Origin: a virus
Direction: 5' to 3' (one strand)
Length of the DNA: 53,517 nt
Virus record (IMG/VR): IMGVR_UViG_3300036845_000533
Span: 1-53,517 of that record
Shown piece by piece: positions 10,731 through 52,937 of the stretch; positions within the stretch are counted from its first letter, which is position 1, and each line of letters opens with the position of its first letter. Both the position numbers and the translations under genes were made by a program. Under the pieces are notes generated by a model. It was not told where the DNA came from and did not search any database. It worked only from the letters and a program-made list of their open reading frames with translations.

Positions 10731-12008
10731 TCACTGGATGGACACCGCCGTTCCGATCCGTGCAGCGACATCAGCGGGAAATGCGATGCGGCCGCGGAGC
10801 AGGCTTTCGAGGTGGGTCATCTGTGAAATGGTAAGCGAATCGACGGGCTGCATGTAGACTCTTGCTGTCATGTCCGGCTTCGAGTGGCCGAGCTGCGCCT
10901 GCACTGCTTTGAGGTCAAGGCCGACGAATTGAGAGATCGTCGCAAAGGATCGGCGCAGCATCTGGAAGTCAACGTCCTGAACCGGAATTTTAGCGCGTAC
11001 CGCGGCCGGTCGTAGGATGCCCCGCACGATATTGGAATAGATTGCCGGTCGGCCAGTGCTGCCGCGGAACAGAACATCCTTCGGGCCAATCCCTTCGGCT
11101 GTGATCCAGGCATGCACCTCGGACGCGAGCTCCGGCGGAAGGTGAATGAATCGAGAGGCCCCGGTCTTCGTGCTCTTGACGTTTCTCCAGCGATCGAAGG
11201 CCTTGTTGATGTGGATCCAGGTCGGACCGACATCCGCCACCGTGACGGCCATCAATTCGGCCGGCCGGGTGGCGCCGAGGATCGAAACCCAGACGATCAG
11301 ACGATCCCGGATGCTCAGTTCGTTGAGTAAGGCCGGAAGATACTGCGGCGGGAAAACACTCTTATCCGGCTTGATCGCCTGCTTGGGAACTTTGAGCCGA
11401 ACCGTCACAGAACGCGCCGGATTGCGTGTCGTCATTCCCCGTTCCAGAGCGAGATCGAACACGGCTCGAAGGTTCGTTAAGACATGCGTGGCATACGACG
11501 TACTGATGCCCTTCTTGATCACCTTCTTTTTTCGAACATCCTGCCGGTGAGCTAGCGATCCCATGAACCGCTTGAGATCCTCCGGCATGATTGAATCGAC
11601 CTCACGCTGACCCAGCGCGGGAATGATCGAATTATTGAAGATCGACCGGGTATTACGGCGCGTGCCTTCTTCCCAGTCGACTTCCCGCATGGTCAGGTAA
11701 TCCTCACAAAGATCTGCTACCTTTGCTCGTCCTGTGGTGGCCACAGCCTGGCCGGCCTGGCGGCGCAGCCATGCAACGTGCAGGTCTTCCGCCTGGCCCT
11801 TGGTTAGTGCGGCCTTGGTCCCCAGGATGCGCTTGCGGCGCAGCCGGCGTTTGGTCCCGTCCGGTCCGACCTCGTGCACATACCAGAGGCCCATCCATTT
11901 CTTTTCGCGTTTGCCGACCAGTTCGACCCATCCGTTCTGGTGGCTCTCCCGGTGGCGGTGTGCGGCGCAATATGCGGCAAGGTCCAGCTGTGTTTGTCCG
12001 TCCCTCAT
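10731..12008 (-). CDS. int: Tyrosine recombinase (phage integrase)
   Basis: The 425-residue integrase catalyses site-specific recombination between attP and the host attB. An arm-binding and SAM-like core-binding region covers about residues 20-200 (LCEDYLTMREV, ALGQREVDSI, YATHVLTNLRAVF). The catalytic domain follows, with R248 (GATRP), K281 (STKTG), R352 (MLRRSF), H375 (QLGHS) and the nucleophile Y385 (RVYMQP). The box-II histidine expected three residues before R352 is Q349, a variant I have seen in acidobacterial integrases. Its start overlaps an AlpA-like gene by 4 bp. attP lies just past its stop. Confidence 0.95.
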   Translation of the reverse strand: MRDGQTQLDLAAYCAAHRHRESHQNGWVELVGKREKKWMGLWYVHEVGPDGTKRRLRRKRILGTKAALTKGQAEDLHVAWLRRQAGQAVATTGRAKVADLCEDYLTMREVDWEEGTRRNTRSIFNNSIIPALGQREVDSIMPEDLKRFMGSLAHRQDVRKKKVIKKGISTSYATHVLTNLRAVFDLALERGMTTRNPARSVTVRLKVPKQAIKPDKSVFPPQYLPALLNELSIRDRLIVWVSILGATRPAELMAVTVADVGPTWIHINKAFDRWRNVKSTKTGASRFIHLPPELASEVHAWITAEGIGPKDVLFRGSTGRPAIYSNIVRGILRPAAVRAKIPVQDVDFQMLRRSFATISQFVGLDLKAVQAQLGHSKPDMTARVYMQPVDSLTISQMTHLESLLRGRIAFPADVAARIGTAVSIQ

Positions 12009-12807: not shown

Positions 12808-12824
12808 TAGACTGGCTTCCCTTC
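12794..12824. repeat. 31-bp translation-start repeat, copy A
   Basis: This segment matches 13401-13431 at 27 of 31 positions. Both copies cover a GAAGGGAAG ribosome-binding site and the codons for MTKP(T) at the start of two adjacent genes. See the copy at 13401. Confidence 0.75.
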
Positions 12825-13414: not shown

Positions 13415-13431
13415 CACACTGGCTTCCCTTC
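13401..13431. repeat. 31-bp translation-start repeat, copy B
   Basis: A near copy (27/31) of 12794-12824. It covers the ribosome-binding site and first codons of the ECF sigma gene. This points to a small duplication or recombination at gene boundaries. Confidence 0.75.
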
Positions 13432-34730: not shown

Positions 34731-35324
34731 TCAGATAGCCTCCCGGAAGTCGACATTGAACCCGTATACTCTCTGCAGCCCGAGCGACCAGGAGCGCTTG
34801 GCATCCTTGAGACACCAGAGCCCGACGCAGTTCTGGAGAACCACCGCCGCTCCGCTGGGGATCGACTCCCGGATATTGGGCCAGATGGTCAATGCGCCGT
34901 TAGCCTCCGACGTGACGCGGTACATGCGGTATCCGATCTGAATCAGATCTCCGACCCTCAGTGCGCCGCCAGGAATGTTTAGTGTGAGGTTATACCCGCT
35001 CGCGGCGGTAGCGGCCACCGTGGGCGATCCGCTATAGCCGGACTGCGGAGCCGTGAAACGCGGGTCGCCCAACTGGAAACAACCGGTCTGACCTTGCAGA
35101 GATTCGAGGAACGCAATCCACTGCTGGGCCGGATTCCCACGCAGCGGTGGCAACTGGAAGGAACCTTCGAGCCACGAAGAGTTCCAGTTCTGAAGCTGGA
35201 GTTGCCCTGTGAAGGGCGAAACGGAGGTTGCCACCGCATCGTAAGCCGTCCAGTCGATATTGGCCGGGGCGGGAGGATAGCTCGGGAACGGAAAGATCGT
35301 ACGATTGTTGAATGTCACCGGCAT
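34731..35324 (-). CDS. Distal tail protein candidate (DUF2460/Dit-like)
   Basis: A 197-residue protein: MPVTFNNRTIFPFPSYPP, NWNSSWLEGSFQLPPLRGNP, QWIAFLESLQGQTGCFQLGD, and GALRVGDLIQIGYRMYRVTS. The RVGDxIxIG and FLxSLxGxxGxFxLGDP patterns are typical of siphovirus distal tail proteins. It lies between the tape measure and the hub genes, the correct place for Dit. Confidence 0.75.
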   Translation of the reverse strand: MPVTFNNRTIFPFPSYPPAPANIDWTAYDAVATSVSPFTGQLQLQNWNSSWLEGSFQLPPLRGNPAQQWIAFLESLQGQTGCFQLGDPRFTAPQSGYSGSPTVAATAASGYNLTLNIPGGALRVGDLIQIGYRMYRVTSEANGALTIWPNIRESIPSGAAVVLQNCVGLWCLKDAKRSWSLGLQRVYGFNVDFREAI

Positions 35325-35332
35325 AAGATCAA

Positions 35333-38300
35333 CTACTGCGGACTGCGCTTCTGGAACTCAACCTGTACCGCCAGCGCATTGGAGACGCTGGCATTGTGTG
35401 CGGCGATGAGACCTTGCCGGGTGCGCTGCTCGGTCAGCACCGGATCGGTGCCGCGGTTGTCCTGAACGATGGTGTAATTGACGGCTCCGCCACCGCCGGA
35501 GGCTCCATTCGGGACCACGCGCCCGGGCACGGCGGGAATGAACTTCTCCGGACCGCGCTCTCCGACCGTGTAGCCCATACCGGCGTCGACGTCGCCGCCC
35601 GCCGCCATTGGCGTAAAGACGCTCGAGACGGCTTCCGTTGCGGCCCCGCCACCACTCGCGGCAAACTGACTCCCTACCGCTACGCCCGCCCCCCCAAGGC
35701 CCGCACCGATAGCGCCCCACGGCAAATTGGGAATCGTGGGAACAGGGAAGCCGATCGGAGGCGCGCCCACGGACGACTGCGGGTTGGTCGAGAAGCCGGT
35801 CTCAGCGATCTGGACCCAGAACGCTCCCTGCGGCGTCTGCCCGTCCTGCTTCCAGCTGGCCAGAATTTGCGCCGCGGACTTCTGCCCGATGCCAGGAAGA
35901 CTGCCGGCGTCGATATGGCCTGCCGGGTGTCCGTGCGCGCCGACTGGAAAGCCGGGGATGTTCGGCCAGTGCCTGTGAATCCAGGGACCGAGCTGCCCCA
36001 GAGCGTGACCGGCTTGCTGACGGATGGTGGCGCGGACCATCTCCTCGCCAATGTCCTTAAACATCTTTCCCCAGCCGGCTTTCTGCCCGGTCATCGCCTT
36101 GGTTAAGGAATCGCTGAACCTGTTGAGGCTGTCCTCGAGCGACCGGTAGATGATCTGCGCAGTCGTCTCGCCTTCGCGCTGCATCTCCAGGAAGAACGCG
36201 CGCACGCCGTCCTGAAGCCGTCCCATGGCCAGAGCCTGCTGCGCCATCGTCTGGAGCCGCTCGTCTTCGAGCTTTTTCAGGGAGAGCGTCGTCTCAAGGG
36301 TGCCTTTGCCCGCGTCCTCGATGTCATGCAGCGCGGCGATCTCTTTGTCGAGAGCTTCCAGCCGGTCCTTATACGCCATGCCGGTCGCCAGCGCGTCATG
36401 GAGGATCTGTGCCTGATGCTTACTCTCGTCGAGGGCTGCGGTGGCCGCGATGACGCCTTCCGTGTCCGGCCCGTATTGATTCCGCTGGCGCATCTGCGCA
36501 TATTTTGCGTCGAGCGTCGCTTTCCGGACGGCCTCCGCGCCCTCCATCTCCGCGGCGCTAATGGCTTCGGTCGACGAGATCTCCAGATTCAGACTGAGCA
36601 ACTCTCCCTTCAGCGCCGCAGCGTTGCGCAGCTCGTTGAGCCGGATCATATCCGCGATCTCTTCGGCGCTGGCGTGCTTGCGGAATAACTGGTAAGCCTC
36701 GTAAGCCAGCCGGATGTGCTCGATCGCCGCCGCGCCTTTACCCTGCGCATCGTAGATGGCCTGCTCCACGGAAAGCTGCTCGCGCAGTGCCGCAGTGGCT
36801 GTATTAACCTCGCCGGTGTGCGTGGCTGCCGCCTCTGCGGCCATTTCTCCGCGCACCTTCTCGACATCCGCGGCGCGCGCACCGGCTGCTCCCGGCGCGG
36901 TGTAGTCCGTTCCGAACCGCTCCATGAGACGGCCTTCGATCTTGGCTGCGGTCTCGGCGTCGTAGCCCTTGCCGATCGCGGCGTTGAGCAACTGCTGCGC
37001 GGCGGTCTTTTCGTGGATCGACCGCGTGGTGTTGTCGACCGCGGTCTTCCATTGCGCCTCGCGGTCCAGCAGGACTTTCCCTTCCGCATCGGCGCGGATG
37101 GTGGCTTCATCCTTGGCAGAAAGCGTCGCGCCAGGTCTGGTGAGCTTCAGTTCCTCCTTGGTTTTGGCGACCGCGCGATCGCCCGCCAGACGCATATCTG
37201 CGGCGAGCTTTTCCTGCGGCGTTTTGCCTGCCGTGTACAGCTGCTCGGCGGCTTTGTTCAGATCCTCCTGGCCGCTGAAGAGGGCCTTCTGGCGGATCTT
37301 CACCAGCTCTAGTTCGGCGCTGGCGGCCTTCTTCGCGGCTTCCGCTTCCGCTTCGAGCTGCTTTACGCGCCGGTTCGCCCCCGCCTCAACCGCAGAAGCG
37401 GACTCGAGGCGCATGGCTAAATCGCGCCGCTGCGTCTGCGAGAGGAGACCCGCGTCCTTACTCTCGGCAATGCCCTTGAGACGATCCCTATCCCGTCTGG
37501 CGGCGTCGTCCGCGAGCTGCTGCGCGATGATCTCGGCGCGGCCCCGTGATTCGGCGGCGAGCGCCTTCTGGCCTTCCAGAGTTTCGCGCTGGCGCAACCG
37601 GGCTGCTTCCGCCGCTGCGATCATCGCGTCCGCGGCAATCCGTCTGTTGGTGTCCTCCCAATTCGGCGGCTCAATGGTCCCTCTCTGTTCCATGCCTCCA
37701 ATGCGGGGAATACCCAGCGAGTCCACCCAGGATTTGACGGCACCGGCACCGCGTTTGGCCAGGTCATCAAACAGCGCGGCCACTTCGACGATGCGCACTT
37801 TGGCCTCTTCGGTAAAGGCGCGCAGGCTGTCCAGATTGATTCCCATGGTGAGTTCGGTGGGAATGTCCCGGATGTCTTTCCCGATTTGCAGCAAATCCTT
37901 ATGCAACTGAACCACCTGCTGGCGGGAGATTTTGTCCATCGTCAGGCCATACTCCTGGACGTTCTCGGTAGCCCGGGCGAATCCTGCATCCAGCTCCTCG
38001 AGAGCCTGCCCGGCGCTGGCGCCGAAGGTCTTGGTCGCCAGTTCGGCTTTCTCGATGGGATCCGCCATGGCATCGAACTGTCGCGCAATATTCCCTAGTT
38101 CTTCCGGGCTGGCCGAGCCCGTGGTCGCCTGCATCGCAAGGTAAAGCGAACGGATGTCTTCGAGTTTTTTCCCGCTCAGGGTGGCCGCTGCATCGATCGC
38201 CTCGACCGATTCGATGGGCGTCTTATTGGCCGCGGCGAAGATGGCCTGCTGCTCGATCAGTTTTCCGCGGGCGTTCACGAGGCGGATGGTTTCCTCGGCA

Positions 38301-38722
38301 GCGATACCCGCGGCGATCGCAGCGACGGTAAACGGAGTCGGAGACAGAGCGATGCGCAGTGCCCGGTATCCGTTGACCAGTTGATTTGTAGTGATGGCCG
38401 AAGTGCCGGCGGTGGCGGCGTACTTCGCCATCGCGTTGAGAGCGAGAGTATGCGAGGCGGCCAGCGCAGAGAGCGCTTCCGCGCCGTGCAGCGCGCCCTG
38501 CGCATACTGGCTGAGCGTGCGGCCCGTCGCATCGACATCGCCTGCCAGCCGTTTGACGCCCGTCGAAGCTGTCGCTGCGCCAATAGCGATCTGACGGCCA
38601 GCGATGAGTCCGGCAGCTCCGAACGTCCCCAGCTTCTTGGACGCCCGCTCGGTCTCGGCATCCAGCTTTGAGCTGCGCGCCTCGAAGTCTACCGTGATGA
38701 TCCCAGCGCGCCGCGTTGCCAT
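35333..38722 (-). CDS. Tail tape measure protein
   Basis: A 1129-residue, predominantly helical protein with long coiled-coil tracts (ASAVEAGANRRVKQLEAEAE, ASAELELVKIRQKALFSGQE). The N-terminus carries hydrophobic helices (FTVAAIAAGIAAEETIRLVN). The C-terminus has the tape-measure signature AAGGDVDAGMGYTVGERGPE then KFIPAVPGRVVPN. In lambda about 1.5 A per residue sets the tail length, which would give roughly 170 nm here. A short SLPGIGQKSAAQILASW segment, near residue 945, looks like a helix-hairpin-helix. The gene follows the chaperones and the gp10-like gene. Confidence 0.92.
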   Translation of the reverse strand: MATRRAGIITVDFEARSSKLDAETERASKKLGTFGAAGLIAGRQIAIGAATASTGVKRLAGDVDATGRTLSQYAQGALHGAEALSALAASHTLALNAMAKYAATAGTSAITTNQLVNGYRALRIALSPTPFTVAAIAAGIAAEETIRLVNARGKLIEQQAIFAAANKTPIESVEAIDAAATLSGKKLEDIRSLYLAMQATTGSASPEELGNIARQFDAMADPIEKAELATKTFGASAGQALEELDAGFARATENVQEYGLTMDKISRQQVVQLHKDLLQIGKDIRDIPTELTMGINLDSLRAFTEEAKVRIVEVAALFDDLAKRGAGAVKSWVDSLGIPRIGGMEQRGTIEPPNWEDTNRRIAADAMIAAAEAARLRQRETLEGQKALAAESRGRAEIIAQQLADDAARRDRDRLKGIAESKDAGLLSQTQRRDLAMRLESASAVEAGANRRVKQLEAEAEAAKKAASAELELVKIRQKALFSGQEDLNKAAEQLYTAGKTPQEKLAADMRLAGDRAVAKTKEELKLTRPGATLSAKDEATIRADAEGKVLLDREAQWKTAVDNTTRSIHEKTAAQQLLNAAIGKGYDAETAAKIEGRLMERFGTDYTAPGAAGARAADVEKVRGEMAAEAAATHTGEVNTATAALREQLSVEQAIYDAQGKGAAAIEHIRLAYEAYQLFRKHASAEEIADMIRLNELRNAAALKGELLSLNLEISSTEAISAAEMEGAEAVRKATLDAKYAQMRQRNQYGPDTEGVIAATAALDESKHQAQILHDALATGMAYKDRLEALDKEIAALHDIEDAGKGTLETTLSLKKLEDERLQTMAQQALAMGRLQDGVRAFFLEMQREGETTAQIIYRSLEDSLNRFSDSLTKAMTGQKAGWGKMFKDIGEEMVRATIRQQAGHALGQLGPWIHRHWPNIPGFPVGAHGHPAGHIDAGSLPGIGQKSAAQILASWKQDGQTPQGAFWVQIAETGFSTNPQSSVGAPPIGFPVPTIPNLPWGAIGAGLGGAGVAVGSQFAASGGGAATEAVSSVFTPMAAGGDVDAGMGYTVGERGPEKFIPAVPGRVVPNGASGGGGAVNYTIVQDNRGTDPVLTEQRTRQGLIAAHNASVSNALAVQVEFQKRSPQ

Positions 38723-38726
38723 ATAG

Positions 38727-39170
38727 TTATGTCCGCATCACGCGAACGCCGATCACTTCTGCAAAGGCGTCAATGGCGCGATCCGCACAGGACTCCGCGG
38801 AGCGGCGCATGAATGGATTGGGCATCGTCTTCTTGCCGGAATCCACTCCGCGGTGGCTAACGATGCGATGGCCGTACTCCAGCCAGAGCGCCACCGGACC
38901 GGCATTCCCGTAGCCGGTGGATGCGACGGCGAACCTGTGGTCCTGGCTCACCGCGATGTCGGTTATCAGCGACGCGGCCAGCGGAGGAAAGCGCGACTTC
39001 CCGATTTCTCTTTCCTCCTTGCGCCGCGGAGTGTTGTTCAGCAGTTCCTGCTGGATCACAGCTCCCGCCGCAATAGTGGCAGGCTCAAGACCCTTCGCGA
39101 TGTCGGACGGCACGGCGCGGACCATCTGCTGCGTCTCGACCAGACCGGTAATGCGGAGTTCGTCGCCCAT
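38727..39170 (-). CDS. HK97 gp10-like neck/tail-joining protein
   Basis: ATG 39170 (MGDELRITGLVETQQMVRAV) is preferred; an upstream reading is Arg-rich and lies over the chaperone gene. The 147-residue product has PATIAAGAVIQQELLNNTPR, ALWLEYGHRIV, and MPNPFMRRSAESCADRAIDA, the hallmarks of the HK97 gp10 family (xxWLExGHxxxxxxPNPFMRxA). In HK97 the gene lies between head closure and tail terminator. Here it is placed after the chaperones and just before the tape measure. Confidence 0.75.
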   Translation of the reverse strand: MGDELRITGLVETQQMVRAVPSDIAKGLEPATIAAGAVIQQELLNNTPRRKEEREIGKSRFPPLAASLITDIAVSQDHRFAVASTGYGNAGPVALWLEYGHRIVSHRGVDSGKKTMPNPFMRRSAESCADRAIDAFAEVIGVRVMRT

Positions 39171-39175
39171 GGGTC

Positions 39176-39649
39176 CTATTGCGCCGGGACGGCATCTGCC
39201 AGTGCGGACGGAATCGGCACGTTGAGCTTCGACAGCATCTCCACCAGGGCCATCGGACGCTCCACCGCCATCTGCTCGATCGCCGCGAACGTCGCGTCGT
39301 CGCCGGTGGGCTTGGCCGCTTCGCGAATGGAGACGCCGCAGCACGCTGCGACTGCCCGAAAGACCTCAATCACGTCCTTAGTGATCAGATCGCCCGCGTG
39401 TTTCAGGCCCACCTTCGGATCCGCGGCGGGGTGCTCGGTATTCGACAAAGCGTACAAGAGGCCGCGCAACTGCGCGGCGTTCATCAGGGAAGGCGTGAAT
39501 ACCGCGCTCAGAAGATTGAATCCGCAAACGGCTTCCGCGTCGGCGATCTCGTTGAAGTCATAGACCAGCGTGAATGTGACGTTGGGCGTGTCCTCGAAGG
39601 AAAACTCCACCCGGGTTTTGCCGCCATCCTCGTCGTGAATTGTTTTCAT
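39176..39649 (-). CDS. Tail assembly chaperone 2
   Basis: A 157-residue protein: EFSFEDTPNVTFTLVYDFNE, then EAVCGFNLLSAVFTPSLMNA and AQLRGLLYALSNTEHPAADP, VGLKHAGDLITKDVIEVFRA. This beta-then-helix arrangement with LRGLLYALxxxEHPxxxxxxVGxxI is typical of tail assembly chaperones. It overlaps the preceding chaperone by 4 bp (ATGA), so the two are translationally coupled; no slippery heptamer for a programmed frameshift was seen. Confidence 0.75.
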   Translation of the reverse strand: MKTIHDEDGGKTRVEFSFEDTPNVTFTLVYDFNEIADAEAVCGFNLLSAVFTPSLMNAAQLRGLLYALSNTEHPAADPKVGLKHAGDLITKDVIEVFRAVAACCGVSIREAAKPTGDDATFAAIEQMAVERPMALVEMLSKLNVPIPSALADAVPAQ

Positions 39650-40326
39650 TGCTTCAAAGCTCCAATGCTGGTAAAGACCTGCTTGATGCGTTCTCCGGTA
39701 AGCGGCTGTTCTTCGGGCGTGAGCCGCTCATCCGGGTGCAACATGAAGCGGTCCATCGAGACGCTCCGTTCAGGCGCGCGGTAGGAGAAGTTCACCAGGT
39801 GCGCCGTCAGATTCGCCATCATCATCTCGAGCGGGCGCTGGCTCTCGATCCGGGCTTCCTGAAGCGCGTCGAATTGTCGGCGCGTCATGTCCAGCCAGTC
39901 TTCGTCGCTCAGACGGAACCGGATGCGCGCGGTCGCCCAGATCTCGACCCAGGTTTGAATTTTCGCGGGCCGTTCCGGTTGGTTATCCTTCGGCCGGCGG
40001 GCTTTCGTCTCCCTGGGCACAGGATCCGGCATAGAGGCCACAAAGGCATCGGCGAGTTTCCTGCGGATCGCGGGCAGGTTCTTCCGGCCGATCTGGGCTC
40101 CGATCTCGACGGCGGTCATCTGGCTGCCGGCCCGCGAGAGGCAGCCGTGAAGCAGCGTACGAATCAGCAGGGCGGAAAGAGTCCACGGCCGGATCGTATT
40201 GAGCATGTCGATCCCCGTCGCGACATGACAATCCAGCAGGACCCCGTAGGTGATCACCAGGGGCCACTTCTTACCGGCAAGTTCGACCTCAACCCGCCGG
40301 TGAAGTTTTTGGGCAAGCCCGCTCAT
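39646..40326 (-). CDS. Tail assembly chaperone 1
   Basis: A 226-residue protein. The N-terminal 90 residues (RRVEVELAGKKWPLVITYGV, LLDCHVATGIDMLN, TLSALLIRTLLHGCLSRAG) match phage tail assembly chaperones that keep the tape measure soluble. The C-terminal part (WVEIWATARIRFRLSDEDWL, MTRRQFDALQEAR) is the WxxxxxxARxxLxLSxxxFWxxTPRQxxAL extension of such proteins, together in one chain. It overlaps the next chaperone gene. A Pro-rich linker joins the two parts. Confidence 0.75.
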   Translation of the reverse strand: MSGLAQKLHRRVEVELAGKKWPLVITYGVLLDCHVATGIDMLNTIRPWTLSALLIRTLLHGCLSRAGSQMTAVEIGAQIGRKNLPAIRRKLADAFVASMPDPVPRETKARRPKDNQPERPAKIQTWVEIWATARIRFRLSDEDWLDMTRRQFDALQEARIESQRPLEMMMANLTAHLVNFSYRAPERSVSMDRFMLHPDERLTPEEQPLTGERIKQVFTSIGALKQ

Positions 40327-40339
40327 GCGGTCGAGGACC

Positions 40340-40804
40340 CTAAACGACCGTTTCGGTGATCGCGCCGGAAATCTGGAGTTCCGTCGAGAACTCGATGGGC
40401 TTATTCAGCTCAAACGGGCCGGGATCATACTTGGTGATGTATCCGGTGCCGGTGATGGTGTACGTTTTCGTTCCGCGCAAAATGGACGAGACGATCTGCC
40501 ACGGAATGAAAGCCTGACTCTGGGCCATGGTCAGAAACTGGAGATGTGTAATGTCGCCGGTATGCTGCCCGGTGATCTTGATGGTGCCGGGTTTGATCAT
40601 GCCGGGAATGAATTCTTCCGTGTTGTTGATCGAAAGCAGATGGCTCGTGGCGACCTGCGGCACATCGAGAAGCGTGGCCGTGATCGATTTGACTTCGACC
40701 ACGTTGGTGAAAACGGGCGGACTCGCGGTGGTTCCGATGGCAAACGTGGCGAGATAGCCAGTGGTGGCTTTCGAAGCATAGGTAGCGGGCGGTGCAAACG
40801 GCAT
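40340..40804 (-). CDS. Major tail tube protein
   Basis: A 154-residue, beta-rich protein with the tail tube pattern: TGYLATFAIGTTASPPVFTN, VVEVKSITATLLDVPQ, INNTEEFIPGMIKPGTIKIT, and ELNKPIEFSTELQISGAITE. The VVEVKSI, then PGMIKPGTIKITG strands correspond to the tube-forming beta barrel shared by siphovirus tail tubes and Hcp. Its place between tail terminator and chaperones agrees. Confidence 0.85.
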   Translation of the reverse strand: MPFAPPATYASKATTGYLATFAIGTTASPPVFTNVVEVKSITATLLDVPQVATSHLLSINNTEEFIPGMIKPGTIKITGQHTGDITHLQFLTMAQSQAFIPWQIVSSILRGTKTYTITGTGYITKYDPGPFELNKPIEFSTELQISGAITETVV

Positions 40805-40806
40805 GT

Positions 40807-41229
40807 TCAGACTCCTTGAATCGGACGTTGAGAGGGGAGAGGAAAGGTCGGGTAATAGTTCACATAGAACTCAATCAGCCGGCGGTAGTTGCGTGCTGCG
40901 GGATCTTGCTCGAAATCAATCATGTCGGACGGGAAGATGCTGTCTACCTGCGTCGCGTCGGGATCGGTCAGTATTCCCCGGTAACCCATCAGGACCGCGG
41001 AAATGCGGTCGGCCAGGTCGAAAGCGGTGGCCTGAGTCGTACCGAAGCAGTTGAACTCCATGCGGCGCTGCGCCATACCTCCCGGAACCTGCAAGCCGGC
41101 GATGGTGCGTTCGTGAATCGTGAGAAATGTATAATTTGGCAGGGTCGCGTTCGAAGGCAGTTGATTGGCAAAGCCGCCGATGAAGTTCAGCGACGTGTTG
41201 ATCAGCATGACCAGCCCTTGTTCGAGCAT
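40807..41229 (-). CDS. Tail terminator/completion protein (DUF3168-like)
   Basis: A 140-residue protein: MLEQGLVMLINTSLNFIGGF, then TLPNYTFLTIHERTIAGLQV and AQRRMEFNCFGTTQATAFDL, ADRISAVLMGYRGIL. The order (N-terminal helix, TIxxxxxxxxxxxxGxxxxRxxxxCFGxTxxxAxxLADRI) matches the tail completion proteins (DUF3168/gp17 type) that close the tail and join it to the head. It follows the glycosyltransferase block and precedes the tail tube. Confidence 0.75.
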   Translation of the reverse strand: MLEQGLVMLINTSLNFIGGFANQLPSNATLPNYTFLTIHERTIAGLQVPGGMAQRRMEFNCFGTTQATAFDLADRISAVLMGYRGILTDPDATQVDSIFPSDMIDFEQDPAARNYRRLIEFYVNYYPTFPLPSQRPIQGV

Positions 41230-41235
41230 TCGCGA

Positions 41236-41931
41236 CTAACTAAGCGGCGCGAGCTTCAATGGACCCGCGTGAAGAAAAGTGGAGTCAGCCGGAAAGCTGT
41301 CTCCGATAACCATATGGCGGTAGCCATCCTCCAGGGTGTTGCCGGGGTCCTGGCGGTTGTACCACTCGAATTTGCGCACGCGGTCGTCGCGGTACATGTA
41401 CCCGAAGTGCAGGAGCTGCGCGTCGAGCCGCCGCGCGACACTCTGCAGGGGGATAGGCGCGTTGCCGCAATGAAACCCGCCGCGAGCCCGCGCCATGAAC
41501 GGAGAGCCATCTGGCCGGAACATGCTGGGGCGCGAGAAATGGCCGTATATGCCGTCCAGGCGGATCTGGTTTTCCGAGTCCCACAGATAAAGAATCTGGA
41601 ACGAGTAGCAGCCCCTCGGACTTCGCATGGCAGCCAGCACAGCCGGCACCGACGAGGGCGCCAGCATCTCATCTCCGTCGATCATCAGGACCCACTCGTC
41701 GCCATCGCATTCGCCCAGCAACCAGTTCTTGTCGCGCGTCTCGTCGAGCCCCTCGAAGGGAGAAGCCAGCACCTCGACGCGGGGAATCGCCGCGCAGATC
41801 TCCGGCGTGCCATCGGTCGAGTGATCGTCCATCACGAGGACGCGATCGCACACCGGCAGGATCGACCGCACCGAGCGGGCGATCCAGCGGGCTTCGTTCT
41901 TTACCCTGAGAAGCCCGATCATGTCAGACAC
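41236..41931 (-). CDS. Family-2 glycosyltransferase 1
   Basis: A 231-residue GT-A fold enzyme: IGLLRVKNEARWIARSVRSI, DRVLVMDDHSTDGTPEIC, and VLMIDGDEMLAPSSVPAVLA with DGDE as the DXD-type metal-binding triad. It has the N-terminal nucleotide-sugar domain and a shorter acceptor part (YMYRDDRVRKFEWYNRQDPG). It would move a hexose from a nucleotide sugar to an unknown acceptor. It is the last of five consecutive glycosyltransferase genes and overlaps the previous one by 8 bp. Confidence 0.88.
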   Translation of the reverse strand: MSDMIGLLRVKNEARWIARSVRSILPVCDRVLVMDDHSTDGTPEICAAIPRVEVLASPFEGLDETRDKNWLLGECDGDEWVLMIDGDEMLAPSSVPAVLAAMRSPRGCYSFQILYLWDSENQIRLDGIYGHFSRPSMFRPDGSPFMARARGGFHCGNAPIPLQSVARRLDAQLLHFGYMYRDDRVRKFEWYNRQDPGNTLEDGYRHMVIGDSFPADSTFLHAGPLKLAPLS

Positions 41932-42544
41932 ACTGGAATGGAACCCCGGACCATTTCCGCTTCAGCCGTTGCCGGTAGATGCGGTTCTGAGCCTGCCACG
42001 AAGAATCAAATGTGCTCAAGCCGCTATGCGTCGCTTCCGCGGGCGGGACCACCACCGGGATCCCCCGCGCGTGCGCCTCGAGGCAAAGGTCTTCGACATG
42101 ACAATGAAACCCGTCGAAAGTCTGCTCATCAAAGCGCAGACCGGAATCCCGCCGGAAGAACACGGAACAGGAATCGAGCGTCGAGACGGGACCCGGCACG
42201 TCTTCAATGGCGCCATCAGACTGGACCTGCAACTCCGTGTTATGGCACCAGCGGTAATGCCGGTCCAGATCAATCCCGACGATGCCCGTCACGAAGCCAT
42301 TGGCGGCCATCGCCGTAAAGGTTTCGAGGGCGCCGGCGCCCAGATAGACATCGGCATGCAGCAGGCCGAATACGGGAGTTGCCGCCGCATCGAGAAAGCG
42401 ATTGCCGATCGCAGCGAGCGATTCGCCGTGCGCGTTCACCACCCGCGCAACGACCATCGCCATCCGGGTGTGAAGCGTTGAGAAGGCGCATGACTGCTCA
42501 ACATCCTTGCTCACGACGGCGATGGTCAGTTGCGGCGTCTGCAT
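41924..42544 (-). CDS. Family-2 glycosyltransferase 2, divergent
   Basis: ATG 42544 (MQTPQLTIAVVSKDVEQSC) is used, two bases from the previous stop. The 206-residue product is a divergent GT2: FLDAAATPVFGLLHADVYL with HADV in the DXD place, DSCSVFFRRDSGLRFDEQ and CHVEDLCLEAHARGIPVVVP, the typical acceptor-side helix. The nucleotide-binding N-terminus is shorter than usual. Activity is less certain than for its neighbours. Confidence 0.7.
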   Translation of the reverse strand: MQTPQLTIAVVSKDVEQSCAFSTLHTRMAMVVARVVNAHGESLAAIGNRFLDAAATPVFGLLHADVYLGAGALETFTAMAANGFVTGIVGIDLDRHYRWCHNTELQVQSDGAIEDVPGPVSTLDSCSVFFRRDSGLRFDEQTFDGFHCHVEDLCLEAHARGIPVVVPPAEATHSGLSTFDSSWQAQNRIYRQRLKRKWSGVPFQCV

Positions 42545-42545
42545 T

Positions 42546-43103
42546 TTAGTTGTGGATGAAAAGTACCCCTGGCACCTTGGCATGCCTGACGCCTGCCGCA
42601 ATAAGATCGTCGATCAGAAAGTGATCGGCCATCCGCAACCCGTCCGGCCGCTCCCACGGAAAGGGCTGGAAGCACTCGCGTTTGACCAGAAAGCCGCCCT
42701 TGTCGATATCGAGGCCAGGCTCGACCCGGATCGGCGCATAGACGCCGGTGAGCCGCGGATCGTAGAGCATGTCGCAATACGTCAGATCGGCTTTCGGCTC
42801 GAGCATCAACTCGAGGAAGCGCGGCACGTAGTAACCGTCGTCCGAGGGAAAGCAGAGATACTCGCCCATGGCATGTTTCGCGCCCAGATTGGAGGATTCG
42901 TAGCAGTTACTCTTCCGCGCCGCAATGTACTGGAAGCGGTGGTCATACATATCGTTCAGCCTCTCCAGGTTTCCCCACTCGCGGTCCCCGTTATCGACCA
43001 CGATCACGTCGAAACCCGGCTCGGTCTGCACCTTGAGCGACCACAGCAGGCAGGCCAGCGCGTCGGGACGGTCGTAGGCGGAGACGATGAAGCTACACTT
43101 CAT
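42546..43103 (-). CDS. Family-2 glycosyltransferase 3
   Basis: ATG 43103 (MKCSFIVSAYDRPDALACLL) overlaps the previous stop (ATGA). The 185-residue enzyme has FIVSAYDRPDALACLLWSLK, DVIVVDNGDREWGNLERLND, NLGAKHAMGEYLCFPSDDGY with a SDDG metal motif, and a C-terminal RMADHFLIDDLIAAGV. It is a compact GT-A domain with little else. The substrate is unknown. Confidence 0.83.
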   Translation of the reverse strand: MKCSFIVSAYDRPDALACLLWSLKVQTEPGFDVIVVDNGDREWGNLERLNDMYDHRFQYIAARKSNCYESSNLGAKHAMGEYLCFPSDDGYYVPRFLELMLEPKADLTYCDMLYDPRLTGVYAPIRVEPGLDIDKGGFLVKRECFQPFPWERPDGLRMADHFLIDDLIAAGVRHAKVPGVLFIHN

Positions 43104-43804
43104 CCGGCAGCCTCCCATTTCGCCTGATAGATCCTGCGGCCCGGCTCAATCGACAGCGGCTGGTATTCCCCTTTGTAATGCCGGAAGGTCGAAGGCAGCA
43201 TGGCGTGATCGACAAAGCAATGATCGTAGATGCCCACGTCGAGACCGGCCAACCGCACCCGACGGCAGTAGTCATTGTCTTCCCAACCGTAAATCGGAGC
43301 GCCCGTCTCGTCGGACCCGCCAAAGCGTTCATCGAGGAGACCCACCAGATCGATCGTCCTCCGCGGAATCAGGACAGCTATGAAGCACACCATTTCATCG
43401 GCGCGCAGTCCGATCCCGCGCGGATTCTGATTCACATTCCCGGCGTTGTTCGCAGCCGCGGCGATGAGGCCATAATTGCTGTGCTCTGCGGCGAGACTCT
43501 GCAGCGTCGAGAAGCCGAAGGGCGTCTGGAGCAGCGCGTCGTCATTCAGTAGAACCACATCGCGCGCCGCCGCTGCCTGGATGCCCAGATTACAGTTCCT
43601 CGCGAAGACGAAGGGCGCGACGCCCGCAAGGATTGTCGAGTGGTCGACAATGTACTGCCGGAACTCGCCCTTCACTCCGAAGTCGATGCCGTCGTCGATC
43701 ACAATAATCTCCACACCCGGATCGTAGTGATGCACGTTGATAACGCACGCCATGAGATTCCGGAGACTGCGGCTCGGGATGACAACCGTGACGGAGGATT
43801 TCAT
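43100..43804 (-). CDS. Family-2 glycosyltransferase 4
   Basis: ATG 43804 (MKSSVTVVIPSRSLRNLM) overlaps the previous stop as ATGA. The 234-residue protein has VTVVIPSRSLRN, EIIVIDDGIDFGVKGEFRQY, FVFARNCNLGIQAAAARDVV, LLNDDALLQ (NDD) and the acceptor-side helix GWEDNDYCRRVRLAGLDVGI. This is a typical GT2 fold with rhamnosyl- or galactofuranosyl-transferase-like features, though sugar specificity cannot be read from sequence. Confidence 0.85.
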   Translation of the reverse strand: MKSSVTVVIPSRSLRNLMACVINVHHYDPGVEIIVIDDGIDFGVKGEFRQYIVDHSTILAGVAPFVFARNCNLGIQAAAARDVVLLNDDALLQTPFGFSTLQSLAAEHSNYGLIAAAANNAGNVNQNPRGIGLRADEMVCFIAVLIPRRTIDLVGLLDERFGGSDETGAPIYGWEDNDYCRRVRLAGLDVGIYDHCFVDHAMLPSTFRHYKGEYQPLSIEPGRRIYQAKWEAAG

Positions 43805-44472
43805 GCGGCTCCGATGGCATGTAGAGAGTGCCGCCGCCACGCGTAGGAAGGCGGATCACAGGGTGCCCAGTTGCCGCTCTCCTCTACCGCGCGCGGACTG
43901 GTGTTGCCGGGATGTATGGTCGCGTGCATCAGATCGATGCGCTGCGAGATCGCCAGCACTTTGGCTTGTCCCGCCACCAAAGTGAAGGCCAGATCCTCAT
44001 GGATGTGCTGGTCTTCGAAGGGATGCTCGAGCGCCCAGCTGCGCCGGTACGCAAGCGAGGTTCCCAGGCACAGCGCCGCGTTGCCCGAGTACAGATGCCA
44101 GCGTTCGCCGTCGGTGAAGCGCATAGACCGATAGCCCGTCACCATAGCCGGCGAATGGCTCAGGATCTCGGTCTGATCGCGCATCCGTCCCGGTTCGGAG
44201 TGATCGTCGTCGTCCCATGTGGCGATAATTTCGCCCTGCGCCATCCGGACGCCGATATTCCGCTTCGCGCCGATGGTAAACCCTTCAGCCACATGGACAT
44301 GCCGGACCCTGGATGTGTCCCTGGGGATCAGATCCGAGACATCGTCGCCATCGGCAAGGATCAGCATTTCCCGCGGCTCATAGTCCTGGCGCAGGAAACA
44401 CGCGATCGACTGCGGAAGCCAGTTGCGCCGATTGCGGGTCAGGCAGAGAGCGGTCACCAGAGGGCGTTGCAT
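43801..44472 (-). CDS. Family-2 glycosyltransferase 5
   Basis: ATG 44472 (MQRPLVTALCLTRNRRNWLP) is used; a longer reading overlaps the head-closure gene and is Arg-rich. The 223-residue protein has TALCLTRNRRNWLPQSIACF, EMLILADGDDVSDLIP, GAKRNIGVRMAQGEIIATWD then DDDHS (the DXD triad), and EDQHIHEDLAFTLVAGQAKV. It is the first of the five glycosyltransferases and lies immediately behind the head-closure gene. Confidence 0.87.
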   Translation of the reverse strand: MQRPLVTALCLTRNRRNWLPQSIACFLRQDYEPREMLILADGDDVSDLIPRDTSRVRHVHVAEGFTIGAKRNIGVRMAQGEIIATWDDDDHSEPGRMRDQTEILSHSPAMVTGYRSMRFTDGERWHLYSGNAALCLGTSLAYRRSWALEHPFEDQHIHEDLAFTLVAGQAKVLAISQRIDLMHATIHPGNTSPRAVEESGNWAPCDPPSYAWRRHSLHAIGAA

Positions 44473-44477
44473 ACGGT

Positions 44478-44870
44478 TTAAGGGGAGGACTCGTCTCCGA
44501 GGGCAAGACAGTTCAATACCAAAATCCGGTTCAGTGCCATGACGTTCGCCACGGACTGAATCACGTAGGTATCGCCAAACTCGGTCACCAGACGCATCCC
44601 GCCAGCGATCCCCGGCTGGTACCGGATCGCCACCGGGATAAACACCATGCTGGTGGTCTGCCCACCCCGCACCGCGTCGACGCCGCGCACCGGGTTCAGC
44701 GCCGCCTTCGCGGTGGTAAATGTCGTCCATGTACTGAGCAGGCCGCCGGCGTCATAGGCGGGCGGGCTTCCCGGCCCGTACGATTGAATCGTGACCAGAT
44801 GGCGCATCCGGCCCATCTCGATGGTGGGCCACCCGTTGACGACTTTGACAAACTCACTAAGGACCGCCAC
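44478..44870 (-). CDS. Head closure protein
   Basis: A 130-residue protein with GRMRHLVTIQSYGPGSPPA, then STWTTFTTAKAALNPVRGVD, AVRGGQTTSMVFIPVAIRYQ, and MRLVTEFGDTYVIQSVANVM. The MRHxVTIQ...WxxxxxxxAxxxPxxG...RY motif order is that of SPP1 gp16/HK97 gp9-type head-tail joining proteins. The GTG at 44870 is the annotated start; ATG 44816 or 44807 (MRHLVTIQ) is quite possible. Confidence 0.75.
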   Translation of the reverse strand: MAVLSEFVKVVNGWPTIEMGRMRHLVTIQSYGPGSPPAYDAGGLLSTWTTFTTAKAALNPVRGVDAVRGGQTTSMVFIPVAIRYQPGIAGGMRLVTEFGDTYVIQSVANVMALNRILVLNCLALGDESSP

Positions 44871-44876
44871 TGTCGG

Positions 44877-45614
44877 TTATCCGCGCGTCCCACAGAAGTC
44901 AAGCATCATGTGCTGCATAAACATACGTTCGATATTGGACGGCACCAGGCCAACGGCGCCGCGGTTTTCAAACCAGAATCCGACCAGATTCAGGATGGCG
45001 AGGTTCAACATTTGAGGAATCCCCGACACGATCGTGGAAGTTACTTGCTGATTCGGCGGCACGGAGGCAATGGTGTGCGTGTCGATGGCCGTCGGATCCG
45101 GATCGTACCCCGCCGTGAAGTTGATCTGAAGCGAATTCGCCACATACAGGGACGCGGGCCAATACTGCCCCGGCATCGGAAAGATGCGCGGCGGTTCGGT
45201 GATGCGGTCGAGCACGAAGTCCACGTCCTGCAGCAGTGTCTGGGTGTTTCCGGTCGAATCGATAAAGATCATGCCCTGAACGCTAATGACGGGCGGATAA
45301 GCCAGCTTGATCATCTGCGAGTAGTTCCAAAGTGTCGAGGAGTACCGCGGCAGACTGTAGTAAGCGGGCGGATAGGCCGATTGCGACTGAATCGTGTCCG
45401 TGTAGTACGGGAAGCTGTCGAGCACCTGCGTCCAGGTCCGCTGCGCCAGTCCGCGTCCGGTAATGATCTCACCCTGGATGCGTGCCGCGGTGATCCAGTT
45501 CGTGATGAAGACATCCTCCTGCGTCCAGGAGTCGGGAACGCTCATGAAGAGCCGTGCGTCCGCCAGAGTCACCGGTTCAGCGGTGGGAAGTGAAGTCTCT
45601 CTGCAATAGCCCAC
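44877..45614 (-). CDS. Head-tail adaptor (HK97 gp6-like)
   Basis: A 245-residue protein: EPVTLADARLFMSVPDSWTQ, EDVFITNWITAARIQGEIIT, GRGLAQRTWTQVLDSFP, YPPVISVQGMIF, and NSLQINFTAGYDPDPTAID. This is the pattern of phage DNA-packaging/head-tail connector proteins (LxDAKxxLRV, WIxAAxxxxExxTGRxLxxQTW, INFTAGYG). The start is GTG. It forms the ring under the portal. Confidence 0.85.
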   Translation of the reverse strand: MGYCRETSLPTAEPVTLADARLFMSVPDSWTQEDVFITNWITAARIQGEIITGRGLAQRTWTQVLDSFPYYTDTIQSQSAYPPAYYSLPRYSSTLWNYSQMIKLAYPPVISVQGMIFIDSTGNTQTLLQDVDFVLDRITEPPRIFPMPGQYWPASLYVANSLQINFTAGYDPDPTAIDTHTIASVPPNQQVTSTIVSGIPQMLNLAILNLVGFWFENRGAVGLVPSNIERMFMQHMMLDFCGTRG

Positions 45615-45615
45615 T

Positions 45616-45825
45616 TTATTTTTTTCGTCGTCGGGTTAATGGTCGCGGAAGAACTGCCGTTTCGACGGCCGGCTGAAGCATGGCGACTTCGGACGGACCG
45701 ACCACGGCAGTTTCGGATGGGCGCAGTGTGCGGGTGTTCTCCCAGCCGCAGTTCATACAGACGACGATCGGCTGGTCGGACTCGGGCGGAATCTCCTGGC
45801 GGCAGCGGTCGCAGATGTCATACAT
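45616..45825 (-). CDS. Small zinc-ribbon protein in the head region
   Basis: A 69-residue protein with MYDICDRCRQEIP and VVCMNCGWENTRTL: two CxxC pairs, one zinc. The C-terminus is basic (PLTRRRKK). It is small and lies between the decoration-like and adaptor genes. The role is unknown. Confidence 0.6.
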   Translation of the reverse strand: MYDICDRCRQEIPPESDQPIVVCMNCGWENTRTLRPSETAVVGPSEVAMLQPAVETAVLPRPLTRRRKK

Positions 45826-45838
45826 GATGGTGCGTGGT

Positions 45839-46321
45839 TCAACTCAACACGCCACCACCGGCATTGGTGGCCGTCGTGCTTGTATCTGCCATCCACGTGC
45901 CGTTGTACGACTTCAGCTTCACGGAATTGCCGATGAACCCGTTCATGGTCACGACATGGTAGATCGAATTGATCCCGTTCGCGGGCGTGGTGACCGTGTG
46001 GGCAAAAGCGGTTCCTGACAAGATGGTCAGTGTTTTGCCGTCGTCCGTGCCAGCTACCGGCAGCGCCAGTGTCAAAGCAGCAAGGCTCGTCGCCATGATG
46101 ACCGCCGTGCCCGACTTGATGCCGATCGCGCCGCTCTGAACTTCTGTCTCGACTTTATCGCCCGCCGTGATGTCCGGAGAGCCTGGACCGACCGTGCCAG
46201 CGAAGCCGGGCAGCGGTGTGGCGAGTTGCGATGGTGCCAGGACCACCACCGGATGGACTGCTGCATCATGAGTGGTTTCATGAGCGGTTTCATGGACTGT
46301 ATCTAGCATTTTGGTACTCAT
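45839..46321 (-). CDS. Capsid decoration-like protein
   Basis: A 160-residue protein with a His/Thr-rich start (VHETAHETTHDAAVHPVVV), then beta-rich IKSGTAVIMATSLAALTLAL, PVAGTDDGKTLTILSGTAFA, NGFIGNSVKLKSYNGTWM. The pattern (ALTLALP...DDGKxLTI...AHTVTTPANGIN) is found in phage decoration and fibre proteins. It is encoded close to the capsid gene, with an AAGGAG ribosome-binding site. A head decoration role is an inference. Confidence 0.6.
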   Translation of the reverse strand: MSTKMLDTVHETAHETTHDAAVHPVVVLAPSQLATPLPGFAGTVGPGSPDITAGDKVETEVQSGAIGIKSGTAVIMATSLAALTLALPVAGTDDGKTLTILSGTAFAHTVTTPANGINSIYHVVTMNGFIGNSVKLKSYNGTWMADTSTTATNAGGGVLS

Positions 46322-46352
46322 AGTGACTCCTTTTTTGGTTGATGTAACGGAT

Positions 46353-46538
46353 TTATCGGCGCAGAGGGGCGACGCCCAGCAAGCCCGACAGGAAATAAAG
46401 CAGCCAGAGAACCACGCCCACGATGATGACGATGCGAATCATACGTGCGATAGCCGGGTCCATCGGAATCATCTGGATGAGCCATAAAGCCAGACCGACG
46501 GCGACCAGAACGATGACGATCTCGATCAGGAATCCCAT
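46353..46538 (-). CDS. Small two-helix membrane protein (Thivi_2564-like)
   Basis: A 61-residue protein with two transmembrane helices (IEIVIVLVAVGLALWLIQMI and IRIVIIVGVVLWLLYFLSGL) joined by a short PMDPAIARM loop. This fits the Thivi_2564 family, common in Gram-negative bacteria and phages, of unknown role. A strong AAGGAG precedes it. With no recognised lysis genes, it is a weak candidate for a holin or pinholin, although its place in the head cluster is unusual for one. Confidence 0.7.
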   Translation of the reverse strand: MGFLIEIVIVLVAVGLALWLIQMIPMDPAIARMIRIVIIVGVVLWLLYFLSGLLGVAPLRR

Positions 46539-46557
46539 AGTGTTTCTCCTTCCGCAG

Positions 46558-46621
46558 CCGAAAGCATGGTCCGACGATCGTTACCCTGTGTTCGCAAGGC
46601 GCGACCGGACACTGCTTTCGG
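46558..46621 (-). other. Long-range hairpin after the capsid gene region
   Basis: CCGAAAGCA (46558-46566) pairs perfectly with TGCTTTCGG (46613-46621). An inner GTCCG (46569-46573) pairs with CGGAC (46606-46610) after a two-base internal loop. It lies in the 101-bp gap between the capsid stop and the next gene. No T-run follows on the minus strand, so mRNA processing or stability is more likely than termination. Confidence 0.5.
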
Positions 46622-46639
46622 CATCACGGATTGCTGTTG

Positions 46640-48061
46640 TTAGTAAGCGTTGGTCAGATAGGCCACTGGGTGTGTTCCAGCGTCCAATAAATTTCCGTCC
46701 CCCCTGTAAAATGCGAGGAATGCCACCTGGCCAAAATCGGCAAAGCGCTCTTCAAGTCTGATAACAGACATTTCCTTGACGCGCCGGATCATGTACATCT
46801 TGAGCGGGCCAAAGACGACGCTGATCACGCTGACGGTGGGTGAAGAGGCCACCGTCTGCAGCTGCGCCATATCGTTGTTGATCGCATAGCCGTAGCCATT
46901 GATCGTGTCGGGCTCTTTCACTGCGACATTGGGCACCCACAGCGGACGCCCATACTTGTCCTTGATCTTTTTGAGCGCCTTCAGCGTCAAATCATGGAAC
47001 ATATACTTCGCTCCAGGGCGGTACAGCGGATCGATGCTGTGTTCCAGATTGGTCATATCGTCCGAGCCGATGGTGTTGCCGCCGCCCACGCCGTCATTGG
47101 CTATGGAACCGATGGCGAGAGGCCCGGCGTTGGCCGCGGTGACGATGCCCTTGGGCTGGTTCGAGCCGGTGCCGAGGGTAAACAGGTTGTTCTGGATGCG
47201 GCCCAGGCGGATAGCAAACTTCTTGGTTAGGTAGGAATCGAAGTCGAAGGCCGAATCCTGCAGCAGTTCGATCGAGATTTTGATCAATTTGGAGCTGAAC
47301 TTATAAGCTCCGAACATGATCTGCCCGAGAGTGACGTCCTGCGTCGAAACCTGCTGGTTTTCCGCGATCAGTTCGCCCATCACGGTGGTGTCGTTATCCG
47401 TCGGGAAGGGCAACGGCTGGCCGGTCGCCGTATCGAAAGTATCGGACTCCTGCAACATCGGGCCGTAATACTTCATGGCTTCGGTGACTTTATCGACGAA
47501 CCCCACCGGCACGAAGAAGCCGGTGGTCGCGCCGGGATAGGCACCCTGGCCGCCGGAGCCCATGTCGCGCACTTCGCGCGCTGCTCCGAGAGAGCGCAGC
47601 TCCCGGTTGATCAGATCGAGGTCGTCCTTATCGAGCGCGCTGCGGATCATCTTGGAGGAACGGTACAGAACCTCCTTGTCCCGGTCGCTGATGCCGCGGA
47701 TGAGATACGCGCCGCGCATACGCCGCTCGTCTCCATAGCGCAGATAGTTGAAATAGGCGCGGTAGTATTCGTCGGCGGCGTTCTTCTGTGCCGGCGCGTC
47801 GTTCGGATCGAGGTGCTGGAATGCGGGGTTCGGCACTCGGCCGTTGGGCGGCGCGCCGGTCGCGCGCAGTTCCTCGTCGGTCTTTTCGGCTTTCTCCATG
47901 CGCGTGATGCGGGCACCGAGCGACTGGAGGTCGGCGTCCATAGCGTCCCATTTGGCGATGTCTGCTTTGGTTTTCAGGCCGGTGCTGTCGGTCAGCTCCT
48001 GCATGTCGTGGAATATCTTCGCGCGCTCCTCGCGGAGCGCATGACTTTCATTGGCATTCAT
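46640..48061 (-). CDS. Major capsid protein, HK97 fold
   Basis: A 473-residue protein. The N-terminal 120 residues are a helical, charged delta domain (REERAKIFHDMQELTDSTGL, ARITRMEKAEKTDEELRAT) that would act as scaffold and be cleaved. The HK97-fold body follows: TGFFVPVGFVDKVTEAMKYY, LPFPTDNDTTVMGELIAENQ, FSSKLIKISIELLQDSAFDF, RLGRIQNNLFTLGTGSNQPK, GIVTAANAGP, and VIRLEERFADFGQVAFLAFY. AGGAG lies upstream of the ATG. It follows the protease gene. Confidence 0.93.
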   Translation of the reverse strand: MNANESHALREERAKIFHDMQELTDSTGLKTKADIAKWDAMDADLQSLGARITRMEKAEKTDEELRATGAPPNGRVPNPAFQHLDPNDAPAQKNAADEYYRAYFNYLRYGDERRMRGAYLIRGISDRDKEVLYRSSKMIRSALDKDDLDLINRELRSLGAAREVRDMGSGGQGAYPGATTGFFVPVGFVDKVTEAMKYYGPMLQESDTFDTATGQPLPFPTDNDTTVMGELIAENQQVSTQDVTLGQIMFGAYKFSSKLIKISIELLQDSAFDFDSYLTKKFAIRLGRIQNNLFTLGTGSNQPKGIVTAANAGPLAIGSIANDGVGGGNTIGSDDMTNLEHSIDPLYRPGAKYMFHDLTLKALKKIKDKYGRPLWVPNVAVKEPDTINGYGYAINNDMAQLQTVASSPTVSVISVVFGPLKMYMIRRVKEMSVIRLEERFADFGQVAFLAFYRGDGNLLDAGTHPVAYLTNAY

Positions 48062-48183
48062 ATGACGATCTCCTGTTGGATAAAAATTGGATTCGCTTAG
48101 CCGTCAGGTCTGCCAGAACAAGTTCAGGGGACCGCTTCGTATCCACTACTGGGGCGTAACTGCGCCCGGGAGTAACACAAACT
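48062..48183 (-). other. Spacer between protease and capsid genes
   Basis: This 122-bp interval is one of the few gaps in the late operon. It holds a short GGGCG/CGCCC stem (48152-48167) and the capsid ribosome-binding site. No convincing promoter was seen on the minus strand, though an internal promoter for the highly expressed capsid would be expected in this place. Confidence 0.4.
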
Positions 48184-49512: not shown

Positions 49513-49532
49513 AGATCGGTGCTCCTTTCGCA

Positions 49533-51297: not shown

Positions 51298-51313
51298 CAG
51301 GCCCCGGAGTCGG

Positions 51314-52936: not shown

Positions 52937-52937
52937 A

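Follow-up and report, generated by a model that had tools for sequence, protein, structure and literature searches.

A glycosyltransferase cassette in the head-tail operon of a temperate phage and its predicted role in the glycosylation of virion proteins

The IMG/VR virus record IMGVR_UViG_3300036845_000533, analysed over its whole length of 53,517 nucleotides (the window), contains five consecutive glycosyltransferase (GT) genes, GT1 to GT5, between the head closure (HC) and tail terminator-like (TT) genes of a temperate phage. As predicted from the genes alone, these enzymes probably constitute a cassette for the glycosylation of virion proteins. This function is favoured by the position of the cassette, which in dozens of phages is locked into the operon for morphogenesis, by searches of 14 records (the window and 13 relatives) in which neither GtrA nor a Polysacc_synt flippase nor thymidylate synthase was found, and by the homology of GT1 to gp108 of the phage Che8 together with the likeness of GT5 to protein GTs.

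Results

The five glycosyltransferase genes

All five genes are located on the minus strand. GT1 (43801..44472, 223 aa), GT3 (42546..43103, 185 aa) and GT5 (41236..41922, 228 aa) encode family-2 GTs which passed the Pfam cut-off. GT1 was matched by PF00535 (3.6e-14) and contains the metal motif WDDDD and the motif IHED; GT3 was matched by PF00535 (5e-14) and contains FPSDDG; GT5 was matched by PF00535 (1.3e-12) and PF13704 (1.7e-9) and contains DDHSTDGT and IDGDE. GT2 (43100..43804, 234 aa; LLNDDA, GWEDNDYCRR; PF13641 4e-4, phrog_29879 7e-6) and GT4 (41924..42544, 206 aa; HADV, HVED; PF13712 1.6e-4) are GT-A like, and their Pfam matches fall below the cut-off. These two were assigned as GTs because invariant catalytic GT-A motifs are kept in their own families and, in the case of GT4, also due to the fold of the predicted structure (pLDDT 76), the best match of which was Majastridin (E 1e-7). 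The metal motif and the downstream catalytic acid were invariant in the alignments, being DDD and ED in GT1, NDDA and D in GT2, DD and D in GT3, HAD and VED in GT4, and DGDE in GT5. In the alignment of GT5 with 25 homologues, 41 columns were invariant. The length of GT5 would be 231 aa if the start were GTG at 41931; the homologues favour ATG at 41922.

The upstream boundary of the cassette is HC (Phage_HCP; 44478..44870, minus strand; PF05521 5.7e-14, phrog_25) and the downstream boundary is TT (40807..41229, minus strand; phrog_347/123, weak matches with E 0.014-0.02). HC and GT1 are separated by 5 nt, GT1/GT2 and GT2/GT3 overlap by 4 nt, the GT3-GT4 and GT4-GT5 distances are 1 nt each, and TT follows GT5 after 6 nt. 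The nearest relative, L063 (L numbers denote individual loci), has the same five GT genes in identical order. The dN/dS values of GT1, GT2, GT3, GT4 and GT5 against L063 were 0.16, 0.16, 0.16, 0.27 and 0.13, respectively, the last being determined over 42 codons, and those of the structural neighbours HC and head-tail adaptor (ADP) were 0.16 and 0.14. All five GT genes are real and under purifying selection. A row of five coupled GT-A genes between HC and TT, as given in a preliminary description of the window, was thus confirmed by the open reading frames (ORFs), spacing, Pfam matches, motifs and dN/dS. The same description had called the downstream neighbour DUF3168-like: no DUF3168 match was found for it in the Pfam scan, and its putative role as the tail terminator is supported by its position and by profile homologues at the same place in relatives, in addition to the weak PHROG matches.

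Similarity of the enzymes to known glycosyltransferases

The GT5 model (pLDDT 94) had its best solved fold matches with SunS and ThuS (E 1.6e-10, TM 0.59), and the GT5 sequence profile matched GmaR (4e-10) and SunS (8e-8) among the solved structures. The best NCBIfam model for GT5 was likewise SunS (TIGR04195, 2e-5), with 23.6 bits against a cut-off of 350. SunS, ThuS and GmaR, the nearest solved relatives of GT5 in sequence and, for SunS and ThuS, also in fold, are soluble polypeptide glycosylators, from which GT5 differs in being a bare catalytic domain. GmaR combines the activity of an O-GlcNAc transferase with that of a flagellar anti-repressor, and its acceptor is flagellin. The GT1 and GT3 profiles, used as an internal control, matched heparosan, chondroitin and other glycan-extending enzymes, unlike GT5. 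The closeness of GT5 to protein GTs and of GT1 and GT3 to glycan extenders suggests a division of tasks in which GT5 would link the first sugar to protein and the other enzymes would lengthen the glycan.

GT1 was homologous to the GT domain of Che8 gp108 (hhalign 95.7%, hmmsearch 1e-13). No match was obtained between the window GT profiles and Che8 gp110 or Firecracker gp36, the latter being a Glyco_transf_25 protein and the positional counterpart of Corndog gp38. None of the window GTs reached a mean hydropathy of 1.9 over 19 residues; the top value, 1.75, was found in GT2.

Occurrence of the cassette in other phages

IMG/VR was scanned with GT5, ADP, GT1, GT2, GT3 and the major capsid protein (MCP) of a related phage, resulting in more than 200 loci, which were annotated with profiles made from the window's own genes. 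Clustering of GT5 at 95% identity gave 96 non-redundant loci. The related contigs are fragments with genes called by simple ORF rules, and the counts vary with the profile thresholds. Head/tail genes were present within 8 kb on the same strand in 89 of the 96 loci. Among the fully assigned junctions, that between MCP and ADP was used in 28 loci and that between ADP and HC in 17; in 6 loci the cassette lay between HC and TT, which is the junction of the window, and in 3 it directly preceded the tail tube gene. As several junctions are used, all within the morphogenesis operon, the constant element is the structural block and not any single neighbour. The preliminary description had proposed searching viral databases for the GT block at the window's junction; it does recur there, two other junctions being commoner. 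The five-gene block had also been taken as singular, and it turned out to be one version of a widespread modular cassette.

GT1 was the first and GT5 the last gene in 68 of the 79 loci having both. The middle is variable and consists of GT2, GT3, GT4 and/or other genes. Of the 96 loci, 50 had Methyltransf_11 proteins, 25 had TOD1-like GTs, 20 had YdjC deacetylases, which were in part fused to a GT, and 17 had DegT/DnrJ aminotransferases; further middle genes encoded PIG-L deacetylases, an epimerase or a 2OG-Fe oxygenase. This predicted gene content is that of a glycan-building island. Overlaps of 4 nt occurred in 62 of 476 adjacent cassette gene pairs. The threshold for transmembrane-like hydropathy was exceeded by 4 of 234 GT ORFs and by none of the 153 other cassette ORFs.

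The empty site was found in the GT-free loci L078 and L080, where the HC-TT distance was -3 nt, and in L081, where the two genes are likewise overlapping or almost touching. In the GT-bearing relatives of the window's lineage (ADP 49-85% identical), HC and TT are 3.2-5.3 kb apart. By this comparison, the cassette is cleanly gained or lost between two coupled assembly genes.

Among the 50,697 records of INPHARED, no isolate with the cassette was found, and a near-identity search with positions 35000-53000 of the window gave no match. The tblastn searches with GT1, GT2 and GT5 resulted in a single relevant INPHARED match, GX15bay (Caudovirales, MK557849); in addition, GT1 weakly matched a short record of a Salmonella phage that carries no annotation. 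GX15bay is the sole annotated phage of that database with a GT5 relative (29% identity), located in a block of GT genes and a methyltransferase gene; in contrast to the cassettes described here, the block lies upstream of the terminase and not among the head-tail genes.

One relative was found integrated in bacterial DNA, on a contig classified as Candidatus Sulfopaludibacter (Solibacteraceae, Acidobacteriota). The gene order of this prophage is portal-protease-MCP-GT1-GT2-GT5-ADP-HC-TNF-TT-tail tube, with an integrase upstream and non-phage genes farther along the contig. An integrase was present in most of the viral relatives tested. The term soil phage, as used below, derives from this Acidobacteriota link, from GX15bay and from what is generally known about the origin of such sequences. 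Two side observations concern Acidobacteriota. Upstream of the prophage late genes on the Acidobacteriota contig (L161 and L162; G001:C1:125001-165000), very large open frames and non-phage genes lie beside an integrase, and the region is possibly a defence island. In another genome (L151, G255), a GT5-like domain is part of a 1768-aa open frame and may be a chromosomal relative of GT5.

Candidate acceptors

In phages with the cassette directly downstream of MCP, the capsid protein carried a short C-terminal extension of the Thr/Ser-x-Ser-Pro type (TGTFTTSP and variants) in 42 of 47 cases, compared with 1 of 10 when the cassette sits elsewhere (Fisher 2e-6). The extension was seen on the HK97-type capsids of L029 and L221-L240, and it was absent from the MCP of a GT-free clade (L245, L248-L251) nested among the tailed capsids. 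In mycobacteriophages, the capsid and tail-tube glycans are likewise located at the C-termini, according to published summaries (PMC12619734). Bulk Ser/Thr enrichment was discarded as an acceptor signal, since no structural protein stood out within the window's lineage; over all loci MCP was Ser/Thr-enriched with p 3e-5, a value uncorrected for relatedness.

In the window, the MCP with the HK97 fold (46640..48061, minus strand; PF05065 1.7e-51), the putative major tail (tube) protein (40340..40804, minus strand) and DUFa (45839..46321, minus strand) are the candidate acceptors. The tail tube gene was assigned by a weak PF06199 match (0.05), its position and a homologous gene in relatives. DUFa is a Thr-rich capsid-adjacent protein with homologues between MCP and the adaptor in relatives, and possibly a decoration protein. 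The acceptor of the window phage could be the capsid at another site, the tail tube or DUFa.

A separate group of elements was noticed among the capsid loci. In L242 (3429-10532), and also in L241 and L244, MCP and an S78 protease gene are adjacent to each other, without portal or adaptor genes, and L242 has in addition two integrases and a weak small-terminase match. Elements of the L242 type look like capsid-encoding phage satellites. The L242 capsid retains the Thr/Ser-Pro tail and no GT gene was seen there, as if a helper modified it in trans.

Genome of the window phage

The window phage is temperate and siphovirus-like, with an integrase, RecT, a terminase, an HK97-type capsid and an S74-type fibre. 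Its temperate nature was concluded from the tyrosine integrase gene (10731..12008, minus strand; PF00589 2.2e-14). The order of the minus-strand genes is portal, protease, MCP, DUFa, ADP, HC, the five GTs, TT, putative tail tube, chaperones, neck and tape measure; ADP (44877..45614, minus strand) was matched by phrog_442 (3.9e-12). The scan for promoters and terminators gave no signal above the shuffled expectation. The phage also encodes a Sigma-70/ECF-type sigma factor (12800-13534, minus strand; Sigma70_r2 1.2e-8, r4_2 2.9e-7), possibly a regulator of late genes, and a DUF6950 protein (2.8e-30) amid the tail genes (33695-34138, minus strand).

Discussion

Multi-enzyme glycosylation of virions is already known. 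In Corndog, an O-methyltransferase gene and three GT genes are located between the portal and protease genes (PMC4351075), and in Corndog and the cluster O phages the capsid and tail tube are modified (PMC4351075, PMC11600133). The capsids of Che8 and Corndog are glycosylated by phage GTs which are essential for the modification (PMC12363180). The relatives of the window resemble Corndog and cluster O in having several GTs as a block inside the structural operon and a methyltransferase gene; the window cassette itself contains no methyltransferase, and that of the relatives is not homologous to the Firecracker enzyme. The differences lie in the GT families, the window having no homologue of Firecracker gp36, in the position within the operon, in the hosts (Actinobacteria versus soil phages with an Acidobacteriota link), and in the DegT, YdjC, PIG-L and epimerase genes added to the cassettes of the relatives. 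With Che8 the window shares GT1, homologous to an enzyme of a proven system; however, the gp108-gp110 genes of Che8 are located at the genome end outside the structural operon, and gp110 has no homologue in the window.

The best reading is that the cassette works like the Che8 and Corndog systems, with part of their features in common, as a variant and not as a new mechanism. The term undescribed system, applied in the preliminary description, was therefore too strong, as operon-embedded genes for multi-enzyme virion glycosylation are documented in Corndog. What is new is the enzyme set, which has no homologue of gp38/gp110, its spread among numerous uncultured soil phages with an Acidobacteriota link, and its insertion at more than one junction of the same operon. 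Further new features are the grammar of constant ends and a variable middle that includes enzymes for sugar tailoring, and the candidate acceptor tail. The literature search found no paper describing such cassettes in soil phages, most subscription papers and preprints being outside its reach.

According to the proposed mechanism, the enzymes would be made in the cytoplasm from the late operon together with the head and tail proteins. GT5, encoded by the almost universal last gene, would begin the glycan by adding a sugar to a side chain of a structural protein soon after its synthesis. Extension and decoration would then be the task of GT1 and GT2 and of the enzymes from the variable middle, which in the window are GT3 and GT4. 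In relatives, the middle steps would be performed by other GTs, methyltransferases, deacetylases, and an aminotransferase or epimerase. The nucleotide sugars would be supplied by the host. As the likely benefit, the glycan would shield the particle or change its adsorption or its stability in soil. Of the earlier proposal that a glycan is built stepwise on virion proteins, the virion as the target is the best-supported part, by operon location, Che8 gp108 and GT5; the stepwise building is inferred only.

Several points weigh against the glycosylation of virion proteins. The virion glycans are here a prediction from the genes. The similarity of GT5 to protein GTs lies below the cut-off of the SunS family, and the acceptors of GT-A enzymes cannot be read from the fold. 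The class of essential capsid GTs (Che8 gp110/Corndog gp38, Glyco_transf_25-like) is not homologous to any GT of the window. The capsid of the window is of another type and lacks the Thr/Ser tail, and among the remaining structural proteins of this lineage none was found to have a GT-specific tail. The association of the tail with the cassette is clustered phylogenetically: when the MCP tree was computed with the last 12 residues removed, the tail changed only 4 times along it; as the independent evidence thus consists of few events, the association was treated as suggestive. Moreover, lipid-linked glycans, handled by host flippases, are another possible substrate of soluble GTs, and the temperate lifestyle of the window phage leaves room for a role at the cell surface.

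Such a role, in which the host polysaccharide is altered in infected or lysogenic cells in the manner of serotype conversion or superinfection exclusion, is nevertheless unlikely. It would agree with the integrases of the window phage and most of the tested relatives, with the resemblance of GT1 and GT3 to polysaccharide GTs of the WcaA/EpsD/chondroitin type, and with the occurrence of DegT and epimerase genes also in O-antigen loci. However, the genes lie within the series of late head-tail genes, to which they are linked by translational coupling, and do not form a lysogenic module, membrane-like segments are few in the cassette proteins, and GT5 is closest to protein GTs. GtrA (PF04138) was detected in 0 of the 14 records and Polysacc_synt flippase was not found in them, which, with no strongly membrane-spanning GT in the window, agrees with the earlier statement that a flippase or gtrA-like protein is lacking. 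The GtrABC systems of serotype conversion share a phage-encoded family-2 GT with the window; an identity with them was rejected, since the window has neither a GtrA or Polysacc_synt flippase nor a membrane-anchored GT.

The use of several junctions and the free swapping of the middle genes would also fit cargo of a recombination hotspot, i.e. GTs selected for another purpose and inserted at head-tail junctions which tolerate insertions. This is quite improbable, as nearly all of the 96 GT5 loci lie in the block from capsid to tail tube and neutral cargo would occur elsewhere too; in addition, the gene order is conserved, the selection is purifying, and the capsid C-terminal tail tracks the position of the cassette. 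Least probable, to the point of being nearly dismissed, is the glycosylation of DNA bases as an escape from restriction. In its favour, hydroxymethylated bases can serve as substrates of small GT-A enzymes in other phages. However, DNA modification was rejected because thymidylate synthase (PF00303) was present in 0 of the 14 records, with no hydroxymethylase-type gene in the window or the 13 relatives, and no base-modification family was found among those window genes that were scanned with Pfam. The genes belong to the structural and not the replication block, and the deacetylases and aminotransferases fit glycan building better.

Extended to the related loci, the glycosylation of virion proteins leads to a wider proposal, which is put forward tentatively as one that may or may not hold. 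The cassettes may be exchangeable protein-glycosylation islands in the morphogenesis operon of many uncultured soil phages, at least some of them of Acidobacteriota. With GT1...GT5 as the constant frame, a core glycan would be linked to the C-terminal Thr/Ser-Pro tail of MCP or to a tail protein, and the swappable middle, in some cases making or modifying unusual amino sugars, would vary the glycan between phages.

Virion glycosylation by phage enzymes has so far been shown in a few mycobacteriophages only, where it protects the virions against antibodies. For soil phages of free-living bacteria, antibodies play no part; if the prediction is true, the trait would therefore serve mainly for something else, e.g. 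the binding of receptors, stability on the surfaces of soil or escape from predators. The capsid C-terminal tail offers a specific candidate acceptor, and a division of labour among the enzymes is proposed. In practical terms, the cassettes provide candidates for protein glycosyltransferases which are small and soluble. If the wider proposal holds, they would be the phage analogue of the bacterial islands for the glycosylation of flagellin or S-layers, of which no phage description was found in the literature search.

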